From positions 1 through 35,201 of IMG/VR virus record IMGVR_UViG_3300025644_000310: 35,201 nt of DNA. One strand, given 5' to 3'. The notes below the pieces were generated by a model. The model was given only the letters and a program-made list of their open reading frames with translations, was not told the DNA's origin and searched no databases. This document shows positions 12,501-34,566 of the stretch, one piece after another; the first letter of the stretch is position 1, and each line of letters opens with the position of its first letter. The translations under genes were made by a program, and so were the position numbers. The stretch comes from a virus.

Positions 12501-12984
12501 TACCTATATCCTTAGCAAAACCCATATCTTTACAAGCCTGGAGAAACTCATATTGTCCATATTCTATAGCACCTTCCATATCAAGTTTCTCAGTATAAAA
12601 TTCTCCATCTTTTCCTGGTACTGGATATGATTCTTTTTCGTTTTTAGGAACTTCAACTACTGTAGCATACTTCCATACCCATTTATTTATTGAACCTTCT
12701 GGGAATATCATACCCATTTGTCCCATATTTATAATGGATGGATACCAGTATATTTGTCTTTCTTCATCAAAGAATTCTAAGTCTTTAACAAGTTTTGAAG
12801 TGGTTTCTAATAGTTTTGCTCGTTCTTTGTTGTCCTCTGTGTAAAATGTATTGCTTAACATCCCACAATTAAAACATAAAAATGAACTATAATTTTCATA
12901 CATATCTTCAAAACAAGTATCTCTATCGTAACACACTGGGCAAGTATCTACAACTCGTTCACCGACATATTTTCCAATTTCCAT
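12493..12984 (-). CDS. Zinc-ribbon phage protein of unknown function
   Basis: The 163-residue protein has two Cys pairs near the N-terminus, CPVCYDRDTC (about 15-24) and CFNCG (37-41), a plausible zinc ribbon. The rest is acidic and aromatic (RQIYWYPSIINMGQMGMIFPEG). It lies between an HNH homing endonuclease and a phage gene of unknown function, so it is likely a resident phage gene that flanks an endonuclease insertion. No enzyme motif seen. Confidence 0.55.
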   Translation of the reverse strand: MEIGKYVGERVVDTCPVCYDRDTCFEDMYENYSSFLCFNCGMLSNTFYTEDNKERAKLLETTSKLVKDLEFFDEERQIYWYPSIINMGQMGMIFPEGSINKWVWKYATVVEVPKNEKESYPVPGKDGEFYTEKLDMEGAIEYGQYEFLQACKDMGFAKDIGNG

Positions 12985-13721
12985 TAAACTACCTCCCTAT
13001 TTAAAAAATATTTAAAAAACATTGTACTTAATACAGCATGATCTCCCTTTAATTCACTGCCACAGTGGACATCCTTGCTTTCAAAAAATAACTTTATGTG
13101 CTTTCTAACGTTTTCGCTATATGTAATAAATTGTAAATTACTTATATCTCCAATATATTCTACCGGTATGTTATTTACAAACCCATAATTTATCGGAACT
13201 ATGTGATCTAAATGATATCCCAACCTACCTCGTTTTCCACTATTTGGTAATAAGTGTACCGACTGTGAATTTGTTATACGTAGAACATTCTTTTTGTATA
13301 TCTGCTTATCCGTTTTTGAAGCTAAAAAATCATCGTAATTATCATATCCATATTTCTTAATGTATCTATCTAATACACCAGGTTTGTACATATTATTCTC
13401 TTTACCACATTTTTCCCAGAATGGATTATTTTTACCAATCATCATCATTGAAATGCGTTTATATAACAATTTACCATCACCACTTTTATTAAATTTTAAC
13501 CTAGCACACGATTTACATTGCACTTTATGTCTAATTTGATTTATACAAGATTGCTTTGCTGTATGGAATACTTCACACTTGCAACTTGGGCAATCCCTAA
13601 CAAACTTACCATTTTTTATTTTAACATTGTATTTTATCTTACTTTTCCAAGAACATTCATTTGAACAATATTTTATATTTGTAGTATCCACACCACAAGC
13701 CTTACATTTAATAGTATTCAT
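12984..13721 (-). CDS. HNH homing endonuclease with zinc fingers
   Basis: The 245-residue protein has N-terminal Cys pairs (CKACG 6-10, CSNEC 19-23, CPSCKC 44-49, CKSC 69-72) and a NUMOD3-like GKNNPFWEKCGKENN (96-110), both used for DNA recognition in phage homing nucleases. The HNH core is YHLDHIVPINYG, with H170 and H173, then N195 in ISNLQF and the final N204/H208 in ENVRKH. It cuts DNA to spread its own gene. Its ATG overlaps the stop of an RHH gene (13718-13873) as ATGA. It is a freestanding nuclease with no intron or intein signal next to it. Confidence 0.88.
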   Translation of the reverse strand: MNTIKCKACGVDTTNIKYCSNECSWKSKIKYNVKIKNGKFVRDCPSCKCEVFHTAKQSCINQIRHKVQCKSCARLKFNKSGDGKLLYKRISMMMIGKNNPFWEKCGKENNMYKPGVLDRYIKKYGYDNYDDFLASKTDKQIYKKNVLRITNSQSVHLLPNSGKRGRLGYHLDHIVPINYGFVNNIPVEYIGDISNLQFITYSENVRKHIKLFFESKDVHCGSELKGDHAVLSTMFFKYFLNREVV

Positions 13722-15342: not shown

Positions 15343-16254
15343 TCAAACTTTATATAACGTAAATCGTTTTCTTGGTGTCCAGTTTTCAAGTGCAGTGTCC
15401 ATGTCATGTACCATACGTTTACACATATTTTTAGCTGACATTCCAATTTCTTCTAATTGTAAAAACTCCCTACCTAACTGTCCACATTCTTTTCTTTTTT
15501 CTGGTCCTTCATTATACCATTCTAATAATCTATCTGCTACATCATCCCATCTACATCTGTCGTCGAAAATATACGGTGTTGGAATTGAACCTTGTAAACT
15601 TCTATTTGATGGCCAGACTGGTTTTGCCCAATCACCGTAAGTAAGATCAGGATTGTCTTTCCATTTTCTGTCATCGTGTAGTGAATGAACCCAATCGTAA
15701 TCTTCAGTTGTTAGGAATTTACCCTTATATTTGAAGCCACTTGCATCCTGTAGACCACCTGTGGTATTTGTAGTGATTGGTGTTCCTGCCATTAGACTTT
15801 CGACTGTACCCAATCCGAAACCTTCATTACTTGCCATGTTTATAGTAACATCTGCAATATTATATAGAAAATTGAGTTGTTCGTCGTCTATCTTTTGGTG
15901 TGAGAATACAATATCGTAATCTGGACAAATTTCATTTACTACTACTGGTAAATCTGTTCCATTCTGGTCTACTGGTTGAGTGTGCATTAATAATACACAT
16001 TTGTCTGATTTCTCTTTGGGTAAGGTATCACAGAATGTTTTATATGCTAAAATCACGTCACTTGGAACTTTCCGTCTGATATTCCGATTATTCCAAAATA
16101 CTACGAAATCTTTATCTTTATCGTGGAACACTGATTTTCTATATCCTTGTAGTTTCTTCCATTTTTCCACATCTAACTCATTTATTGGGAAAAACTTATC
16201 TTCTGGAATACCATGTGGAACGTATGATAACATAACTTTACTTTTCTCGTTCAT
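15343..16254 (-). CDS. GT-B glycosyltransferase, C-terminal (donor) half of a broken gene
   Basis: About 303 residues from the ATG at 16254, which has AAGGAG five bases upstream; a GTG at 16260 is also possible. It holds the donor half of a GT-B enzyme: YVPHGIPEDKFFPI at the start (the usual linker into the second domain), FVVFWNNRNIRRK, and MASNEGFGLGTVESLMAGTP, the donor-site E-G-F-G and glutamate. It is in the same reading frame as the piece at 16282-16758, separated by two in-frame TAA codons. The two may act together as separate chains, or the gene may be decaying. The good ribosome site before this half favours separate expression. Confidence 0.75.
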   Translation of the reverse strand: MNEKSKVMLSYVPHGIPEDKFFPINELDVEKWKKLQGYRKSVFHDKDKDFVVFWNNRNIRRKVPSDVILAYKTFCDTLPKEKSDKCVLLMHTQPVDQNGTDLPVVVNEICPDYDIVFSHQKIDDEQLNFLYNIADVTINMASNEGFGLGTVESLMAGTPITTNTTGGLQDASGFKYKGKFLTTEDYDWVHSLHDDRKWKDNPDLTYGDWAKPVWPSNRSLQGSIPTPYIFDDRCRWDDVADRLLEWYNEGPEKRKECGQLGREFLQLEEIGMSAKNMCKRMVHDMDTALENWTPRKRFTLYKV

Positions 16255-16281
16255 TTTCACTCCTTATTTTTCTAATAAAAC

Positions 16282-16758
16282 TTATTTTCCAATCCATTCA
16301 GTGTCGACACCACTTCTGTTTAAAACATCTTTATGCATTGCACAAGATTGTTTGGATATTCCCATTATCAAATCAGAACTCTCGTAGTATCTTGCATTGT
16401 ATAATGGTGATGGAAAATTGTCCCAAAGTGCATAATAAAATATGGGGATGAGTTGTCTAATTTCATGTTCCATTTGATATAACCAGCCCCAGAACCTCGG
16501 ATCAGTAAAATGTAAGATGGCATCTGGGTTTTCCAATTTCATTAGTTGTCGTAATAACTCTTGATTTCCATATCCACTAATAGGATATATTTTGAGGTAA
16601 GCATCTTCTATTCCAGTTTCTTCTCTAACTGAATCATTCATATCCACCACTTTACCGTCTTCTGGATGTTTTATTGCACCACCGGCCTGGACCCAATCGT
16701 ATTTATCAAGTGTACCCAGTACAAAATTTTTGGAAACTGTACCAACCCCACTACTCAT
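16282..16758 (-). CDS. GT-B glycosyltransferase, N-terminal (acceptor) half of a broken gene
   Basis: The 158-residue frame begins MSSGVGTVSKNFVLGTLDKY, the acceptor-side opening of GT-B enzymes, and continues with DAILHFTDPRFWGWLYQME and SCAMHKDVLNRSGVDTEWIGK. It stops at a TAA just where the donor half should begin. Upstream in the same frame, after one TGA codon, lies KKKKILLLSDDL (16765-16845), which is the expected first strand of this same enzyme. So this piece lacks its first strand unless the stop is read through. In an intact enzyme all three pieces would form one protein of about 500 residues. Confidence 0.7.
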   Translation of the reverse strand: MSSGVGTVSKNFVLGTLDKYDWVQAGGAIKHPEDGKVVDMNDSVREETGIEDAYLKIYPISGYGNQELLRQLMKLENPDAILHFTDPRFWGWLYQMEHEIRQLIPIFYYALWDNFPSPLYNARYYESSDLIMGISKQSCAMHKDVLNRSGVDTEWIGK

Positions 16759-16764
16759 TCTGAG

Positions 16765-16845
16765 TCAAAGATCATCTGATAAAAGTAAGATTTTTTTCTT
16801 CTTACTATTCAGATGATCTGTAGATACCTCCGTGATTTTATTCAT
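16765..16845 (-). pseudogene. Detached N-terminus of the broken GT-B glycosyltransferase
   Basis: A 26-residue frame ending KKKKILLLSDDL then TGA, followed in frame by L-R-M-S-S-G-V-G of the next piece. The sequence is the natural first beta strand of the GT-B protein. Removing the six bases TTGACT would restore SDDLRMSSGVG without a stop. The ATG overlaps the stop of the homing endonuclease gene at 16838-17845. A strong inverted repeat (16769-16819) falls inside it. Confidence 0.6.
16769..16819. repeat. Strong hairpin with nested inverted repeats
   Basis: An 11-base perfect inverted repeat (AGATCATCTGA at 16769-16779 with TCAGATGATCT at 16809-16819) encloses a 7-base one (AGTAAGA 16784-16790 with TCTTACT 16800-16806), with an A/T-rich loop. 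On the minus strand it lies in the first codons of the broken glycosyltransferase, just before its TGA. It has no T-run after it, so it is not a standard terminator. Confidence 0.7.
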
Positions 16846-17845
16846 ATTTATATTCCTGTAGTAATTTACCATTTTCATGTAATATCCATACATCAATTTT
16901 ATATAATTTATCTGTAACCGATTTACATTTTGATTCAACTGTATCTTCGTGTGTTTTATACGTCCACATTGATTTAACTTCTATAAACTTATTTTCAGAT
17001 TTTATAAAAATATCTGGAAAATACCTTCTATCTTTACCATTATTATACCAAAATTTTGGCATGCCTTTTTTATCTGTGAAAATATCACTTTCATCGTACA
17101 ACTTAAACAAAATATCTAACGCCTGTGGTTCATACCCTTGAACTCTTAATAACTTACCAGATGGTGTTTTATAATCTTTAAAATTTAATCTACTTTTAAT
17201 ATTTTTTTGATGAACTTCTGTATTTTGTTGAGCATTTCTAACTCCGTATTTTTTCAAACAAGTAGTCTCAGATTTTTCTCTGAATTCACTCGTTTTGAAG
17301 TAGTTAGATACACCATACTTTTTGAGCATTGTCTTTTTATAACTGTCACTTCTACTCTGAATCCGCTTCCTTGTCCATTTACTATTTGGATGGGATAACA
17401 TTCGTTCAACTACTTTATTGTCATTCATAGGATTATTTTTCATCATATATTCAGATTGACGTTTTATAGAAGAATTAGTATCTTTTGTAAGTCCACTATT
17501 CCAACTTTCACAGTGACCACCTAAAAATCTATTATATGTGTGTCTCGTATAACTATATTCTGTAAATTCACCACACCCACATTCACATTCAATTTTATGG
17601 TGTTTTATATTATAATTGTCAACCGATAAATTATGTAATTTTAAATGGTTAACTTTAATTGCTGAATTGGAACTTACAATATCACCACATTCTTTACAAT
17701 CAAACTTTCCAACAACATATTCACCATAATTTGATTTTGGAAATTTAAATTTGTATTCATACAATGATATACCGTGTTTAGATTTTAAATGTGAGCCATT
17801 GATTCTCATTTTCATCGTATCACCACATATTTCACAAACTACCAT
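16838..17845 (-). CDS. Homing endonuclease, zinc finger plus PD-(D/E)XK
   Basis: The 335-residue protein has N-terminal zinc-finger-like repeats (CEICG with SHLKSKHGISLYEYK, then CKECG with NHLKLHNLSVDNYN, then CECGCGE), a basic middle with paired KKYGVSN/KKYGVRN repeats that could read DNA, and a C-terminal nuclease core RRYFPDIFIK...NKFIEVKS, giving PD at 277-278 and E289-x-K291. This is the PD-(D/E)XK pattern of restriction-like homing nucleases. Its ATG overlaps the stop of a small RHH gene and its stop overlaps the start of a broken glycosyltransferase, so it sits exactly at that gene's 5' end. Confidence 0.82.
   Translation of the reverse strand: MVVCEICGDTMKMRINGSHLKSKHGISLYEYKFKFPKSNYGEYVVGKFDCKECGDIVSSNSAIKVNHLKLHNLSVDNYNIKHHKIECECGCGEFTEYSYTRHTYNRFLGGHCESWNSGLTKDTNSSIKRQSEYMMKNNPMNDNKVVERMLSHPNSKWTRKRIQSRSDSYKKTMLKKYGVSNYFKTSEFREKSETTCLKKYGVRNAQQNTEVHQKNIKSRLNFKDYKTPSGKLLRVQGYEPQALDILFKLYDESDIFTDKKGMPKFWYNNGKDRRYFPDIFIKSENKFIEVKSMWTYKTHEDTVESKCKSVTDKLYKIDVWILHENGKLLQEYKYE
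16845..16852 (-). promoter_or_regulatory. Possible late promoter box at glycosyltransferase start
   Basis: TATAAATA on the minus strand ends at the first base of the ATG at 16845. A transcript from it would begin a few bases inside the frame, so it would lack this ATG and could favour the start at 16758. Chance occurrence is possible in such AT-rich DNA. Confidence 0.25.
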
Positions 17846-20280: not shown

Positions 20281-20526
20281 TCAAGACAATTTTGAAATGA
20301 CGGACTGTTTTGTATGCACTCCAACTAATCTATCCACCTCTTCACCGTTCTCTGATATGACGAGCGTTGGAACACTTTGTATTCTATTTGTTAGTGCCAA
20401 ATCTCGTTCAGTATCTATGTCGTGTAATGTTATGTTATATCCCTCACTCACAAGTTCCAATATGATTGGTTTGAAAGTTTTACAGGGACCACACCAGTTC
20501 GCCGTATAATAATCTGCAGTTTTCAT
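20281..20526 (-). CDS. Thioredoxin-like protein
   Basis: The 81-residue protein is a minimal thioredoxin: the active site is NWCGPCKTFKP (C12, C15), the cis-proline region is SVPTLVI and a late GEEVDRLVG strand completes the fold. It is a little shorter than host thioredoxins because the first strand is reduced. It can serve as a reductant for ribonucleotide reductase or other phage enzymes. Its leader AGGAGAAATAAAATG is identical over 15 bases to that of the GIY-YIG endonuclease at 21519. Confidence 0.92.
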   Translation of the reverse strand: MKTADYYTANWCGPCKTFKPIILELVSEGYNITLHDIDTERDLALTNRIQSVPTLVISENGEEVDRLVGVHTKQSVISKLS

Positions 20527-20536
20527 TTTATTTCTC

Positions 20537-20656
20537 CTAATCTATCCACTTACCGTGGTTTACTAAATGCCAAGTTCTATGTTTAATTATTTCTATCATC
20601 AATCCGATCCAAGAATCTGATTCATAGAGTCCAGTGTCACATTTATAACTATACAT
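20537..20656 (-). CDS. Small protein of unknown function
   Basis: A 39-residue frame (MYSYKCDTGLYESDSW...) whose ATG overlaps the TAA of the short fragment upstream, as expected for a resident phage gene that follows that fragment's original gene. It ends 10 bases before the thioredoxin ATG and its stop overlaps the thioredoxin ribosome site. No motif recognised. Confidence 0.4.
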   Translation of the reverse strand: MYSYKCDTGLYESDSWIGLMIEIIKHRTWHLVNHGKWID

Positions 20657-20730
20657 TATTTTCCCCAACTACCCCTACGAACTATCTCGGCAATAATTCC
20701 ATAAACTGAAATGTCCCTGAAGGTGTCCAT
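20656..20730 (-). pseudogene. Displaced 3' end of a DUF1599/Nmad1-like gene
   Basis: A 24-codon frame, MDTFRDISVYGIIAEIVRR then GSWGK, ending in TAA. It aligns without gaps to the C-terminus of the intact protein at 21633-22055 (DTFIDIANYANIALVVSRKK, then WGK), with 13 of 23 positions identical by my count. It follows the GIY-YIG endonuclease immediately (TAGATG). It is best read as the tail of a homologous gene left behind when the endonuclease and a new tail were inserted. Confidence 0.6.
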
Positions 20731-21417
20731 CTATTTCTTCTCAACTTTCCAGTTGTGACCATTTTTACCATAATAAAATAAACTATAGTAACTTACTTTT
20801 TCATTATTTTTCATAGTATACTCCATAATATACTGTTTAACTTCTTTTTTACCTAAAAATGTTTTAGTGTTGCCATTTGGAAATGTAACTATCCAATGTT
20901 TAGCATATAATTTTTTAAAATAAAGTTTAAGTTCGTCTGTATGATTTTTACCATAAAATGGATTTTTCTTTCCAGTGATATCAACAGTCTTATGCCATTC
21001 TACTTTAGATATGGACATTTTTAATTTGGATTCATCTGAATGTTTACGTCCTGTACTCGATATTCTAAGTTTTTCTTTGGTTTCATCTGAATGTTTCCAA
21101 CTGTTATTTTTGGTTCTAGTTGCAACCATTTTATCTAATGATTCCTTTGAGTGTGCATAACCATTATTTGATATTCGTGTATTCCTTATTTTATTAATGG
21201 TTTCAATTGACAATAATTTATTCATCCCACCTGTAGTTAAGTTATATCCATTACATTCTGGATCACCACGGAATGTGTGATATTCTTTAATGTATTTTTG
21301 TTCTAATAGATTTAACTCACCAATAGATTTTGCTGAATTATCTATAACTTTCCAACTAAAATTTTCGTTCCCATGTTTTCTAATTGATCTATGAAAATAG
21401 GTTGCTGGATCATTTCG
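20731..21417 (-). pseudogene. GIY-YIG homing endonuclease, distal part after in-frame stop
   Basis: Past a TAA at 21418-21420 the frame continues open as RNDPATYFHRSIRKHGNENF, then LLEQKYIKEYHTFRGDP and GYNLTTGG. These are the second half of the GIY-YIG domain, including the expected catalytic glutamate (LLEQKYI). The rest, from the ATG at 21225, has repeated NUMOD3-like motifs (HSKESLDKM, HSDETKEKL, HSDESKLKM, GKKNPFYGKNHTDELK) for DNA binding and ends in WKVEKK. With the N-terminal piece it would make a normal endonuclease of about 262 residues. Only the DNA-binding part has its own ATG. Confidence 0.75.
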
Positions 21418-21519
21418 TTATGCATGTAAATGTTCTGATATTCTTTGTGTTAATGGTTTAATTGTTTGACCAATATAACTTTTATTATTGACTTTGTTAG
21501 TAGCTTTGTAGATAATCAT
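21418..21519 (-). pseudogene. GIY-YIG homing endonuclease, N-terminal part
   Basis: From an ATG at 21519 with a perfect AGGAG site: MIIYKATNKVNNKSYIGQTI then KPLTQRISEHLHA and TAA. It contains the IY...YIGQT motif and the conserved arginine (LTQRISEH) of the GIY-YIG nuclease, but stops before the catalytic glutamate. The same frame also runs back to an ATG at 21645 in the end of the upstream gene; those 42 codons are probably leader DNA, not protein. A single base change would restore the full enzyme. Confidence 0.75.
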
Positions 21520-21632
21520 TTTATTTCTCCTGTTCAGATTTATGTTATAGAACAAGTTATCCTTACTTAAACAGGTTTCAGGAAACACTCCGTCGAATGC
21601 TGTCCTTGTTCTATAATAACTATCAGGAAAAA

Positions 21633-22055
21633 CTATTTTCCCCATTTTTTTCTACTAACAACCAATGCTATATTAGCATAATTTGCAATGTCAATAAATG
21701 TATCTTCAACGTTTTCATCTACCGCACTTTTCTTATTTTTTAATACAAGATTTAATAATCTCTGTAATTTATCATTCAATCTAATTACTACTCCTGATAG
21801 TGCCATTTGTCTATCATCAGATTTATTTATATCACCACCCATTAAAATAGAATTTTTTCCATATGCTTGCTGTTTTTTGGCAAATAACTCATATTGTTCT
21901 TCTTGTATTTTACGAAACTCTTTCATCATTTCTGGATATTCTCGTTCCATTTTGTCTATGATGTTATTTGACTGTGGGTTCACTTCAATTGTATCTGGTG
22001 AACCATCGTTTCCGTAGATTACTCTTTTTTTATTATCTTTGATAAATTTAGTCAT
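21633..22055 (-). CDS. DUF1599/Nmad1-like phage protein
   Basis: The 140-residue protein has QYELFAKKQQAYGKNSILMG (about 52-71), VVIRLNDKLQRLLNLVLKN (about 89-107) and the end VEDTFIDIANYANIALVV. The pattern K..YG, then R..DK..R...L, then D...D.AnYa.ia matches DUF1599 (nucleotide modification associated domain 1), a helical family of phages related to nucleotide-binding all-alpha enzymes. It may act on nucleotides or base modification. Its C-terminus seems to have a displaced homologous copy at 20656-20730 beyond the GIY-YIG gene. A conserved leader AGGAGTTATAAATT precedes the ATG. Confidence 0.65.
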   Translation of the reverse strand: MTKFIKDNKKRVIYGNDGSPDTIEVNPQSNNIIDKMEREYPEMMKEFRKIQEEQYELFAKKQQAYGKNSILMGGDINKSDDRQMALSGVVIRLNDKLQRLLNLVLKNKKSAVDENVEDTFIDIANYANIALVVSRKKWGK

Positions 22056-22618: not shown

Positions 22619-23062
22619 TTACTCCTCTATTATTATAAATTTACATCCCAGATGATCAACTATTTCTTGCTTTCTTCTTTCATCTCGTTCTTTTTGATAT
22701 TTGTGATGTTTTTCATAGTATTCTATCACTACATTCCGTTCTTTGTCATAGCCATCTACAAAATATCCAATCACTTGAACTTCACCGCCGTTTTCTGCGT
22801 GTTGGAAGTTGTAACTATTTTCTTTTCCGTATCGTTCTATTATCGAAATTGATTTTACATTATACATTGGAGCTCCAGTTGGGAAATCAGGATGATATTT
22901 TTTTAATTTATTTATCATATTTACTCTGTGTTTTTTTCTTGTAGTATCTTTACAATTTACTCCAGCTCTATTTTTATTTGATTTAATAACAACATTAATT
23001 ACAGATGTGGTGTGAGTTTTTCCATAAAACGGGTTTCTATCACCAATTACTGAACACGCCCT
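22619..23062 (-). pseudogene. Homing endonuclease, NUMOD3 plus Vsr-like distal part
   Basis: After a TGA at 23063-23065 the same frame continues RACSVIGDRNPFYGKTHT, a NUMOD3 motif, then basic residues and, from the ATG at 22918, MINKLKKYHPDFPTGAPMYN. It ends with GYFVDGYDKERNVVIEYYEK and HHKYQKERDERRKQEIVDHL. That C-terminus has the D...IEY.EkHH pattern of Vsr/EDxHD-type phage homing nucleases. The part from 22918 (99 residues) has its own ATG but lacks the zinc fingers and NUMOD3 of the complete enzyme. Confidence 0.65.
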
Positions 23063-23417
23063 TCAATATACTGACCTAATGTGTATCAACTTCTCACAAT
23101 TCAAACATTTTTTATTTTTTCCATCACCTACCATCAATCCATGTTTATAATTTCCATTATTTTCACCTTTATGAGTGCAACTCCTACACTTAAACCCCAG
23201 TGATTCAGCTCGAATCATTATATCATTCCGTTTATAAGTAATCACCTTTTCGCAAGTCGGACAATTTCTTTTGAAACTCCCTAATTTTTTCTTCATAATA
23301 TTTCTCCATTTTTTCTTTATTTATTTCATCTTTATTTCGATGATAATAATCTAAAGACCACTTACGTTGAGCTTGTTTCTTTTCATCTACCGTAATATGT
23401 TTCTTTATTCTTCCCAC
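23063..23417 (-). pseudogene. Homing endonuclease, zinc-finger N-terminal part (frameshifted)
   Basis: Two overlapping frames. The first, from a GTG at 23417 with AGGAG, reads GRIKKHITVDEKKQAQRKWS and LDYYHRNKDEINKEKMEKYY, a helical DNA-binding start common in phage HNH/Vsr nucleases. It is out of frame with the second (23063-23296), which has NCPTCEKVITYKRND, FKCRSCTHKGENNGNYKHG and KKCLNCEK zinc-finger pairs. The frames meet at a run of six A residues, so one extra A there would explain the shift. The second frame then ends at a TGA that interrupts the distal part. Together this is a decayed nuclease gene. Confidence 0.6.
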
Positions 23418-24554: not shown

Positions 24555-24994
24555 GGTAGGTTCAGTTTTTTCAGTTCTTTTGTATCCGCTCCGTATTTCT
24601 GGAGAATAGTTTTGAGATTTGCCTTGTTCTGTTCGGTTGCATAGAATACTTCTAAATATTCGTGTGCTTCTTTAAGACTTGATTCATAGTACTTTGCTAC
24701 TATTTCTAATAACCATTTTGGATGTTTCATACTCTTTTTACCTTTTGTGTATTTCAACCATTGCTTACCCTTTGGTAATATATTGGTATATAACTTGTAT
24801 AACTCTTGTGGTCTTAAATTATATTTTTGGAACTCATTTACTATATCTACCCATTCCATTTTCATAGATAGGAAGCGATGTACCATATAATTAGACCAAT
24901 TTTTCTTTTCTTTATCATTGAGCGTATCCCAATAACCTTTTGTTTGTTTTCCTGTTATATGATTTATGTGGTCAAACAGTGTTTTTGTTTTCAT
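24551..24994 (-). CDS. 62: Clamp loader small subunit, gp62-like
   Basis: The 147-residue protein is helical with NWSNYMVHRFLSMKMEWVDI, LYTNILPKGKQWLKYTKGKK and LEIVAKYYESSLKEAHEYLE. The order W..YMv.R.LS, then LPK.K...KY.K, then YY..S..EA.eyL matches the clamp-loader small subunit of T4-like marine phages, which joins gp44 to load the gp45 clamp. I recognise it by pattern, not by computed alignment. No strong ribosome site precedes it: the upstream DNA is a 60-base AT-rich stretch where an island ends. A truncated copy of its first 45 codons lies at 30834-30998. Confidence 0.72.
   Translation of the reverse strand: MKTKTLFDHINHITGKQTKGYWDTLNDKEKKNWSNYMVHRFLSMKMEWVDIVNEFQKYNLRPQELYKLYTNILPKGKQWLKYTKGKKSMKHPKWLLEIVAKYYESSLKEAHEYLEVFYATEQNKANLKTILQKYGADTKELKKLNLP
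24894..24991 (-). repeat. 98-bp direct repeat, copy at intact gp62
   Basis: Identical base for base to 30895-30992 and in the same orientation. It covers codons 2-34 of gp62. Beyond 24894 toward lower coordinates similarity continues for about 40 bases with mismatches, then stops. It marks one end of the cargo island. Confidence 0.95.
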
Positions 24995-30841: not shown

Positions 30842-30998
30842 TTATTGATGTCCAATTCATATTCATAGATAGAAAACGGTGAACCATATAATTGGACCAA
30901 TTTTTCTTTTCTTTATCATTGAGCGTATCCCAATAACCTTTTGTTTGTTTTCCTGTTATATGATTTATGTGGTCAAACAGTGTTTTTGTTTTGGTCAT
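30834..30998 (-). pseudogene. Truncated 5' copy of gp62
   Basis: A 54-codon frame, MTKTKTLFDHINHITGKQTK, then ...NYMVHRFLSMNMNWTSIND and TAA. The first 45 codons match the intact gp62 at 24551-24994; after LSM the two diverge and this copy soon ends, in the acetyltransferase start. The ATG directly follows the stop of the zinc-ribbon gene (TAGATG), so this is probably the original place of gp62. Confidence 0.85.
30895..30992 (-). repeat. 98-bp direct repeat, copy at truncated gp62
   Basis: Identical to 24894-24991, same orientation, spaced by about 5.9 kb that contains exactly the six cargo genes. It bounds the other end of the island. Confidence 0.95.
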
Positions 30999-32281: not shown

Positions 32282-33010
32282 TTATTTTATTATATTTAAT
32301 ATATTAATCATTGTTGCCATAAAATTTATTTCTCTATCCACGATGTTTTTTTCTCTAAACTGACCTTCAGCCAGTTCTAATATACATTCCGCGACATGAC
32401 CACTCGCCCATGAATCCAGTTCATCAAATAGTAATCTGAACATATCAGCAAATTCTGTAACTTGGGTGTCTGCTAATAATTGTCGTATATTCTTAAATGC
32501 GCTCTTCTTATCTTGTGACTTTAGTATTTCTAATAATTTTAATTTGTAATCATTTTCAACCATACTACGTTTATCAACAGTCAATTTACCATTTATAGAT
32601 TGCTGTTGGACTGAATTGATTATTCGTCTAATGTCTGGATACCCACTATTAACGTTCAATACTATGTCCTCTACGTTGTATTCTATTTCTTCCTTATCCA
32701 ATATACCCTTTATATGTACTGCAATTTCTTTTTTGGATGGTGGAATTATCTGAAATGTTTGACATCTACTTTGGATTGGATCAATTATTCGTTCTACATA
32801 ATTACAGGTTAGAATAAACCGAGAATGTTTACTGAACGTTTCCATTAGATTTCGTAGTGCTGCTTGACCTTGTGGGGTGACGAAATCACAATTATGTGTA
32901 AGTGTTTCTGTTTTACCTATTACGAAATTATGATTACCGTCAACTGACAAGTCATACACGTGCTGGGTGTCTTTTAATTTTTTTATAGATTTAATCTTTA
33001 TCTTGTTCAC
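32282..33010 (-). CDS. 44: Clamp loader large subunit gp44, C-terminal part with split intein C
   Basis: The 242-residue product starts at a GTG at 33010 inside the end of the nuclease gene. Residues 1-40 are the C-terminal half of a split intein: HVYDLSVDGNHNFVIGKTET then LTHN. The extein starts at C41: CDFVTPQGQAALRNLMETFS, then FILTCNYVERIIDPIQSRCQ (sensor 1 and the SRC arginine finger of AAA+ clamp loaders). It must join with the product of 33949-34566 to make an active gp44 of 306 residues. Splicing would give a DECD Walker B box. Confidence 0.92.
   Translation of the reverse strand: MNKIKIKSIKKLKDTQHVYDLSVDGNHNFVIGKTETLTHNCDFVTPQGQAALRNLMETFSKHSRFILTCNYVERIIDPIQSRCQTFQIIPPSKKEIAVHIKGILDKEEIEYNVEDIVLNVNSGYPDIRRIINSVQQQSINGKLTVDKRSMVENDYKLKLLEILKSQDKKSAFKNIRQLLADTQVTEFADMFRLLFDELDSWASGHVAECILELAEGQFREKNIVDREINFMATMINILNIIK
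32891..33010 (-). other. Split intein, C-terminal fragment
   Basis: Forty residues, ending in block F (HVYDLSVDGNHNFV) and block G (LTHN), followed by Cys (+1) at 32888-32890. All residues for C-terminal cleavage and the transesterification (His, Asn, +1 Cys) are present. Confidence 0.9.
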
Positions 33011-33884
33011 TATAACCTATTCCCACATACATTTTATTTAATTGTATTTTGTTATTATCAATAAATATTTCTGAATTTATATAATCCATAATATTATTTT
33101 CATTTATCCACTTGAATTTATATCCACTCACATCACAATGTTTTATTAAGCTGTCTATTTTTTTTGTTTGTTTTAAGAAAAAACTTCTTGGTTTTATTTC
33201 ATACAATATCTTTGTATCTTTATCGTAAAAATCACCCATATAAACTCTACCATTATCCGTTTTTTTAGTTCTACATTCCTTACTTTCATATTCTAAATGT
33301 TGATTACTATACCAAAAACAAGCTTCCCACGAATTCCTAAACTTTTTAACTTTACCATTAACTTCTATTATAGCATCCCAATGTGTAAATGTATTTGTTA
33401 TTGGTGGTGTAAATTCACCATTGGAAATCTTTTCTCTCATCAACTTTGAGTTTAATTTTGCATTTCTTTTTATATTAGCCTTACCCTTTTCAGTCTGGTT
33501 AAACTCTTTCATCTTTTTAGAATTGTGTTTTCCAAGTTGTGTATAAAATTGTTTAGCTTCATCCGATTGTAACCATTTTTTCTTTGTATGTTGTATCTTT
33601 TTAGCAATTTTTATATTATCTCGTTTTCGCATCCATACTCTATTACCGACACACTGATTACAATATTTTCCATTATTTTTTGTATGAAATCTAGAATCAC
33701 AATGTTCACATTCTTTCAACCTACCTATTTTTTTACATTCATAACATAACAATTGATTCGACGCTTTAGCTACATAATCTTTACCACAACTGTCACAAAT
33801 CTTATCATAATAATGAACTCCACCAAGGCCATTTCTATTTGCGGCATCTCTTAACTTTTGCCTTGTAGATTTTTTTATACTCAT
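32991..33884 (-). CDS. Homing endonuclease lying between the split-intein halves
   Basis: The 297-residue protein has zinc-finger pairs (CDSCGKDYV, CYECK, CEHCDSRFH, CNQC), a basic linker (HTKKKWLQSDEAKQFYTQLG) and a C-terminal nuclease core with KFRNSWEACFWYSNQH, then GDFYDKDTKILYEIKP, giving D218, E229 and K231. The same order and position is known for the Vsr-like endonucleases of fractured split-intein genes (Dassa and co-workers, 2009). It would cut intein-less gp44 alleles and spread the whole unit. Its stop lies 20 bases inside the downstream gp44 part, so translation is coupled. Confidence 0.82.
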   Translation of the reverse strand: MSIKKSTRQKLRDAANRNGLGGVHYYDKICDSCGKDYVAKASNQLLCYECKKIGRLKECEHCDSRFHTKNNGKYCNQCVGNRVWMRKRDNIKIAKKIQHTKKKWLQSDEAKQFYTQLGKHNSKKMKEFNQTEKGKANIKRNAKLNSKLMREKISNGEFTPPITNTFTHWDAIIEVNGKVKKFRNSWEACFWYSNQHLEYESKECRTKKTDNGRVYMGDFYDKDTKILYEIKPRSFFLKQTKKIDSLIKHCDVSGYKFKWINENNIMDYINSEIFIDNNKIQLNKMYVGIGYSEQDKD

Positions 33885-33948
33885 TTAACATCTCCATTGT
33901 TCATATATAAATATAACCAACTTGTGTTTTTCGAGTAAAAAAATCTAA

Positions 33949-34566
33949 CTATGGTGATAAAATATGATTATAGTTATCCAACTGATTTGTTTTAACTACA
34001 ATTGGATTACCATTTTTATCTTCGACGTACCATTTATGATCTTCAGTGCAAACAACTACTTCACCATTTTCAAGTTCAATCTCATACACCTCTTGTTCAC
34101 CCTTATCCCACAAGTGGAATGGTCTCCACTGCCATTCTTCTTTTTCAACATTCCAAGATTTAACTAAATCATTGTTTTCATCAACATCTTTTATCGGAAC
34201 TTGAATCTGTTCCCCATTCGATAATACAGTAACTAATGTATTTTCATCCAAACACTCATCAAGTACGACCACCTTTAAATCTTTAAATCCAATAGTTGAT
34301 ACGAATCCTTTTATTTTATTTCTAACAGAATCTACACTATTTTCATCACTCGCATTTATGTAAATATAGTCACATTCAATACTATTTGAGAGTATTTTTG
34401 CGAGAGTTGTCTTACCGGTTCCAGCTGGACCAAATAATAGTAAGTGTGGGATGTCTCCACTTTCCAAATAAACCCTTACCTTTTCCTTTAGGTGGTCATT
34501 ACCAATGTAAGTGTCAAGATTAGTGGGCCGATATTTTTCTACCCATAGGGTATGTTCAGTTTGCAT
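33949..34566 (-). CDS. 44: Clamp loader large subunit gp44, N-terminal part with split intein N
   Basis: The 205-residue product has residues 1-104 of an AAA+ clamp loader: TLWVEKYRPTNLDTYIGNDH, Walker A FGPAGTGKTT (45-54) and Walker B VVVLDE (99-104). The intein starts at C105 (CLDENTLVTVLSNGEQ), and block B CTEDHKW has T174 and H177. It ends in NYNHILSP. Insertion is after the DE of Walker B, in the ATP site. The start overlaps the upstream glycosyltransferase end by 11 bases. Confidence 0.93.
   Translation of the reverse strand: MQTEHTLWVEKYRPTNLDTYIGNDHLKEKVRVYLESGDIPHLLLFGPAGTGKTTLAKILSNSIECDYIYINASDENSVDSVRNKIKGFVSTIGFKDLKVVVLDECLDENTLVTVLSNGEQIQVPIKDVDENNDLVKSWNVEKEEWQWRPFHLWDKGEQEVYEIELENGEVVVCTEDHKWYVEDKNGNPIVVKTNQLDNYNHILSP
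33952..34254 (-). other. Split intein, N-terminal fragment
   Basis: 101 residues beginning with Cys1 (TGT at 34252-34254). Block A (CLDENTLVTV) and block B (TEDH) are intact, so the N-S acyl shift should work. With the 40-residue partner it makes a small intein with no internal endonuclease domain. Confidence 0.9.

Follow-up and report, generated by a model that had tools for sequence, protein, structure and literature searches.

Homing nucleases usually spare the genes of their hosts by residing in introns, inteins or intergenic positions. A different arrangement occurs in fungal mitochondria as the mORF 'gene hybrids', which include atp6 of Allomyces macrogynus, atp6, atp9, cox2 and nad3 of a Glomus sp., atp9 of Rhizopus and cox2 of Mortierella (PMC3630166). 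The stretch of viral DNA considered here (the window), a 35.2 kb IMG/VR virus record with phage-type genes, resembles these hybrids in that a foreign C-terminal end is joined in frame to a resident gene and followed by an endonuclease ORF, and in that the native C-terminal end is displaced behind the ORF, where it matches a close nuclease-free relative. The window differs in that the hybrids are mitochondrial and partly LAGLIDADG, whereas its own nuclease is a phage GIY-YIG/NUMOD3 protein, and in showing a large co-converted half gene; a displaced-head (5′) version, such as that at an RNA ligase gene described below, is not among the mORF hybrids covered there. The window works like an mORF gene hybrid but, not being mitochondrial, is not filed as one.

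Within phages, the homing literature, in the searched passages of PMC2988022 and PMC10448857, describes gene splitting, co-conversion and exchange boundaries. Like the GIY-YIG Seg family of T-even phages, the window nuclease is free-standing between genes with co-conversion of a flank, and it shares with T-even homing genes an RNA structure over the ribosome-binding site and a promoter-less operon position (PMC2988022). However, Seg intronless homing swaps flanks by two-sided homology and displaces no gene end, and the MobE/MobA insertions split genes and regenerate no end (PMC2988022); two-sided repair of the Seg type, with no gene end left over, is not what the window displays, since its right junction strands 24 recipient codons. 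One-sided homology, illegitimate joining and resection are shared with the one-sided homing of the td intron in T4 (Parker et al. 1999, as summarized in PMC2988022), although td, in that summary, is an intron in an experimental assay, whereas the window holds a natural free-standing gene and a product that includes a regenerated host-gene end. In the large islands of PMC10448857, homing nucleases likewise mark where recombined stretches end, close to essential genes, but the searched passages of that paper describe neither a displaced gene end nor a regenerated tail or head. A full-text literature search, with most subscription journals outside its scope, returned no report of displaced gene ends in phages or of the 5′ version. 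The three-part layout is therefore known from fungal mitochondria; its occurrence in phages appears new, and the 5′ (head) version is the least precedented.

Two ends of one gene

The locus lies on the minus strand of the window, with the following features in order of transcription.

22616-22068, minus: Clp-like protease, the next gene 5′ of the DUF1599 gene
21633..22055, minus: DUF1599-like gene (PF07659), chimeric, with codons 1 to about 57-62 of the recipient (L003/L004) type and the remainder of another lineage
21866..21920, minus: left recombination junction, in or just past the conserved FRKIQEEQYELF patch
21636..21707, minus: attached (foreign) tail EDTFIDIANYANIALVVSRKKWGK, the C-terminal end of the DUF1599 gene, with the stop after it
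21520..21632, minus: spacer of 113 nt between the DUF1599 gene and the nuclease frame
20731..21519, minus: GIY-YIG (PF01541) plus NUMOD3 (PF07460) frame of homing-endonuclease type, opening MIIYKATNKVNNKSYIGQT and ending in TAG
21418..21420, minus: in-frame TAA at nuclease codon 34, the same in L001 and L002
20656..20730, minus: displaced native DUF1599 3′ end, 24 codons, MDTFRDISVYGIIAEIVRRGSWGK and a stop, starting ATG GAC ACC; its 5′ edge is the right junction
20537..20656, minus: 39-codon ORF overlapping the stop of the displaced tail
20281..20526, minus: thioredoxin-like gene, which in L004 is directly 3′ of DUF1599
20243-19374, minus: PDDEXK nuclease gene, downstream of thioredoxin

The same arrangement is present on two further contigs, L001 and L002, at 100 % identity over the shared stretch, which excludes a one-off assembly error. 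The displaced tail begins at the base right after the nuclease stop, placing the right junction at 20730/20731, where it bounds the candidate cut site. The 39-codon ORF is missing in L004 between DUF1599 and thioredoxin. The thioredoxin and GIY-YIG genes share an identical 16-nt leader, AGGAGAAATAAAATGA, at their starts (20523-20538 and 21516-21531).

A preliminary description of this DNA held that the short frame past the GIY-YIG gene resembles the end of the DUF1599 gene, and the resemblance is borne out: displaced MDTFRDISVYGIIAEIVRRGSWGK and attached EDTFIDIANYANIALVVSRKKWGK agree at 13/24 residues in an ungapped alignment. The pair has a BLOSUM62 score of 60, whereas the best of 100,000 shuffles reaches 44, and in a six-frame scan of the window the runner-up 24-mer reaches 26. 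For comparison, 23 DUF1599 loci were fetched. The nearest nuclease-free relative, L004 (protein identity of 81 % for Clp and 82 % for PDDEXK, about 80 % for DNA), ends its gene with MDAFKDISVYGIIAQIVKNGKWGK and continues directly into thioredoxin, and L003 ends with EDSFLDLSVYGVIAEIVRRKKWGK, directly followed by the PDDEXK gene. The displaced tail matches these two ends at 18/24 and 17/24 positions, respectively, and the attached tail at 12/24 and 14/24, while the ends of L003 and L004 match each other at 14/24. Within clade B (L005-L009, L012, L016 and L017, with the motif 'DTFIDIANYG'), it is the attached tail that is closer, at 14-17/24 as against 11-13/24 for the displaced one. The nuclease has no copy at the corresponding place in L004 or L003, which are empty sites to the occupied site of the window, and no second short tail frame was found at a meaningful score downstream of the intact gene in 17 relatives (1.5-2 kb examined), the scan returning two weak matches only, with scores near chance. 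Because L004 and L003 end with the displaced type and have one tail only, the original tail is the one that follows the nuclease. The history proposed in the preliminary description, in which a diverged 3′ end was gained and the old tail left beyond the nuclease, is thus largely right: the nuclease-free relatives to which it had looked for a check carry the displaced and not the attached type, the attached portion comes from a different DUF1599 lineage, and the second tail that it associated with a tandem duplicate unrelated to the nuclease occurs in 0/17 relatives. L004, at about 80 % DNA identity, is a less exact empty site for the window than the L116 and L260 sites treated below are for their own loci.

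Extent of the exchange

That a foreign end had been imported stood, but the exchange is larger than the tail to which the preliminary description had confined it, spanning about 80 codons from about codon 57-62 onward. Over codons 26-62 the window is 74 % identical to L004 and 81 % to L003, and over codons 63-140 it is 40 % and 39 % identical, respectively; clade B has the reverse trend, with 45-59 % for codons 26-62 and 51-54 % for codons 63-140. When scanned for a single breakpoint, the sites that discriminate between the clades place it after residue 62 (p 5e-5 by permutation, 0/20,000). At the nucleotide level, codons 46-55 are identical to L004 at 30/30 nt, and identity drops to about 0.45-0.5 after codon 60. 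The FRKIQEEQYELF patch is the most conserved part between the lineages, and blastn of L010 and L005 to the window matches only there. In a tree of the C-terminal half, the window joins clade B (92/93), and the AU test rejects its placement with L003/L004 (p 0.014, lnL 38.7 worse); in the tree of the N-terminal half, which has 35 columns, grouping with clade B is not rejected (AU p 0.44). The blastn match to L004 extends for 835 bp at 78.7 %, stops inside the gene and resumes at the displaced tail (74 bp at 74 %); in L004 both parts belong to one uninterrupted gene, the tail coming 150 nt later. About 150 nt of the recipient were therefore lost, in exchange for about 80 foreign codons, the spacer and the nuclease. 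The donor of this 3′ half is unsampled, the best match having 54 % identity and the window being sister to clade B and not within it; no other DUF1599 gene was found with a close GIY-YIG relative as its immediate neighbour.

Gene-end exchange at other loci

In a survey of viral contigs, both flanks of each GIY-YIG frame were compared with one another at 133 non-redundant loci, and end duplications turned up at three genes besides that of the window, encoding a Mom-like protein, a Zn-ribbon protein and an RNA ligase. The tblastx survey misses L084, one of the RNA-ligase loci, which the tblastn version finds, and its counts are therefore lower bounds. Mismatched-flank controls gave 2-3 matches per 133, the strongest probably between loci from one contig. 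The 18 GIY-YIG loci of isolated phages yielded 0 cases, which leaves no cultured example in hand. One further locus, L220 (2400-4800), has a GIY-YIG gene between two complete paralogues (about 171 aa, 44 % identical) and was left out of the case count.

At the Mom-like gene (PF25680) of L040 and L249, the attached end EYPYPSSTADYDYPIEHHLTYPPEDYIENKFW is followed by GIY-YIG and then by KEKKELHSKLKHKIRDYPKNAEEFIPQIERHETVYEPTGATFW, a displaced end that shares 93-95 % identity with the native ends in the nuclease-free L258-L261. The first ~340 nt of this gene are 97-98 % identical to the nuclease-free L260 and the remainder is 80-90 % identical to L250, whereas from the displaced tail onward the DNA is again 95-97 % identical to L260/L258, over 720 bp. 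The foreign type of end also occurs with the nuclease and no displaced tail in L251-L253 and L273, a layout that represents the donor arrangement, and with no nuclease in L250 and L254-L257.

The T4-type RNA ligase gene (PF09511) of L084 presents the mirror image: the old 5′ end (MLKIQKFIKENGFEKAVKEFQLKTREYEHKVLLKY) precedes the nuclease, and behind the nuclease the RNA-ligase body is fused to a 5′ end that is new and diverged. L083 represents this locus on another contig, and L089 and L099 are further lineages with the layout. In the nuclease-free L116-L120, the old head is joined to the body. Around the insert, which consists of spacer, GIY-YIG and new 5′ end, the left flank of L084 is 96.9 % and the right flank 99.4 % identical to L116, and the displaced head of L084 equals the L116 head except for the last residue. 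A search of phage records for the displaced head gave no match, a weak negative, as the query ended in nine added residues. At the Zn-ribbon gene (PF09723) of L222 and L248, the attached and displaced ends agree over 75 nt at 76 %, and no empty site was found. Near-identical empty sites are thus available for the Mom-like and RNA-ligase cases, with flanks at 95-99 %, and L249 and L084 each hold one contiguous insert, with a nuclease whose frame is open; exchange of a gene end together with a nuclease is a recurrent event.

Mechanism, alternative histories and neighbouring elements

A GIY-YIG-driven break, repaired by homology on one side and by illegitimate joining on the other, is the best explanation of the window, with a probability of roughly 0.8. 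The donor would have been another phage lineage with a free-standing GIY-YIG gene just downstream of DUF1599. During co-infection, its nuclease (or the break that it made) would open the recipient DUF1599 gene near the 3′ end. To the left of the break, repair would proceed from the donor gene by homologous recombination, with a crossover in the conserved stretch near codon 55-62, and would bring the recipient the final ~80 codons of the donor gene along with the spacer and the nuclease. Because donor and recipient would share no homology on the right, the broken end there would be joined illegitimately, and the recipient's last 24 codons would survive behind the nuclease. The imported 3′ portion would keep the gene functional by restoring it in frame and, being divergent, would presumably resist re-cutting; both the exact cut site and the immunity to re-cutting we infer. 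Precedents in T4 include one-sided homing with illegitimate repair, microhomology junctions and extensive degradation/resection, as well as the bias of I-TevI co-conversion to one flank (PMC2988022). At the RNA ligase, where each flank agrees with the empty site to within a few bases, homology may have guided the joining at both ends, and the new head would then have moved as a component of the unit; the like layout in three lineages (L084, L089 and L099) also points this way.

That the nuclease itself caused the event in the window is suggested chiefly by the parallel cases with near-identical empty sites, and these also bear on the strongest alternative, in which two unrelated events took place, mosaic exchange replacing the 3′ half of the gene and stranding the tail, and a GIY-YIG gene inserting separately. 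Phage genomes are mosaics, the donor of the C-terminal half is distant, and the foreign tail type occurs without a nuclease at the Mom-like locus (L250 and L254-L257), all of which would suit such a history; however, gene end, nuclease and displaced end recur as a unit at the Mom-like, Zn-ribbon and RNA-ligase genes, the single contiguous inserts of L249 and L084 sit between flanks that are 95-99 % identical to empty sites, and in the window the displaced tail starts at the base after the nuclease stop, so that the end of the nuclease is itself the junction. Two separate events are accordingly improbable, though less so than the remaining alternatives. A tandem copy of the gene, or of its end, that arose independently of the nuclease and then decayed would explain why the two tails are homologous, but they belong to different lineages and are not sister copies, a second tail was seen in none of the relatives, and L003 and L004 resemble the displaced tail (17 and 18/24) no less than they resemble one another (14/24); these comparisons already largely refute such a duplication, which has very little chance of being correct. 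Equally slim are the prospects of a group I intron with GIY-YIG or an alternative-exon device, with the displaced tail as a real 3′ exon, since, although many GIY-YIG nucleases are intron-encoded and both tails are in open frame, there is no Rfam intron match at gathering or relaxed thresholds, the only non-coding DNA is 113 nt, too little for a group I core, with none past the nuclease stop, and the upstream gene is complete with its own stop and its chimerism would be left unexplained.

Beyond the window's break-and-repair history, it is an even call that phages carry recurrent end-regenerating homing units, in which a GIY-YIG nuclease is physically linked to a copy of one end of its target gene that has diverged and resists cutting, the 3′ end at the DUF1599, Mom-like and Zn-ribbon genes and the 5′ end at the RNA ligase. 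If so, such a unit inserts in coding sequence with no splicing intron, giving nucleases a further route in phages, that of bringing a replacement gene end along, and it would be a natural counterpart of engineered 'home-and-rescue' gene drives, one of which is described in PMC7968924. It would also account for short orphan frames that resemble gene tails or heads beside phage nucleases, and explain in concrete terms how nucleases produce chimeric genes in phages. The RNA-ligase and Mom-like empty sites are close enough for direct cutting tests.

The nuclease frame of the window matches the PF01541 and NUMOD3 profiles (E 1.4e-7 and 1.2e-12, respectively) and keeps the positions that are invariant in an alignment of 11 relatives. 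Its reading frame is broken by the TAA at codon 34, which L001 and L002 share, and this copy is therefore probably dead, so that its activity cannot be assumed; the stop codon was probably acquired after the event. The spacer holds a 12-nt perfect inverted repeat and folds better than shuffles (z -2.84), the predicted fold covering the ribosome-binding site and start codon of the nuclease. Rescue by a recoded stop was considered, as a glycosyltransferase frame of the window is also cut by TAA, and was rejected: the glycosyltransferase (15343-16758, minus strand) consists of two frames with two in-frame TAAs and a fresh ribosome-binding site, and so looks like a real split gene, a single 482-aa version of which is present in L048.

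Several other features were noted in the window and in a relative. HNH-like and PDDEXK/Vsr-like ORFs resembling homing nucleases at 12984-13721, 16838-17845 and 22619-23296 make the phage look rich in such elements, and in L048 (1601-4840) GIY-YIG genes sit elsewhere in the same neighbourhood, after the Clp-like gene and after the PDDEXK gene, a placement that suggests repeated independent invasions of this operon. At 32282-34566 (minus strand), a clamp-loader gene is in two parts with intein-like halves (the N-part with DECLDENTLVTV and the C-part with NFVIGKTETLTHNC), with a nuclease-like ORF (32991-33884) between them, as in a fractured gene with a split intein. Finally, a 139-bp direct repeat (95 %) at 24853-24991 and 30855-30992 flanks about 5.9 kb that encode an EamA-type transporter, an outer-membrane-like protein, a sulfotransferase-like protein and other ORFs, a stretch that is missing or joined differently in L001 and L002.
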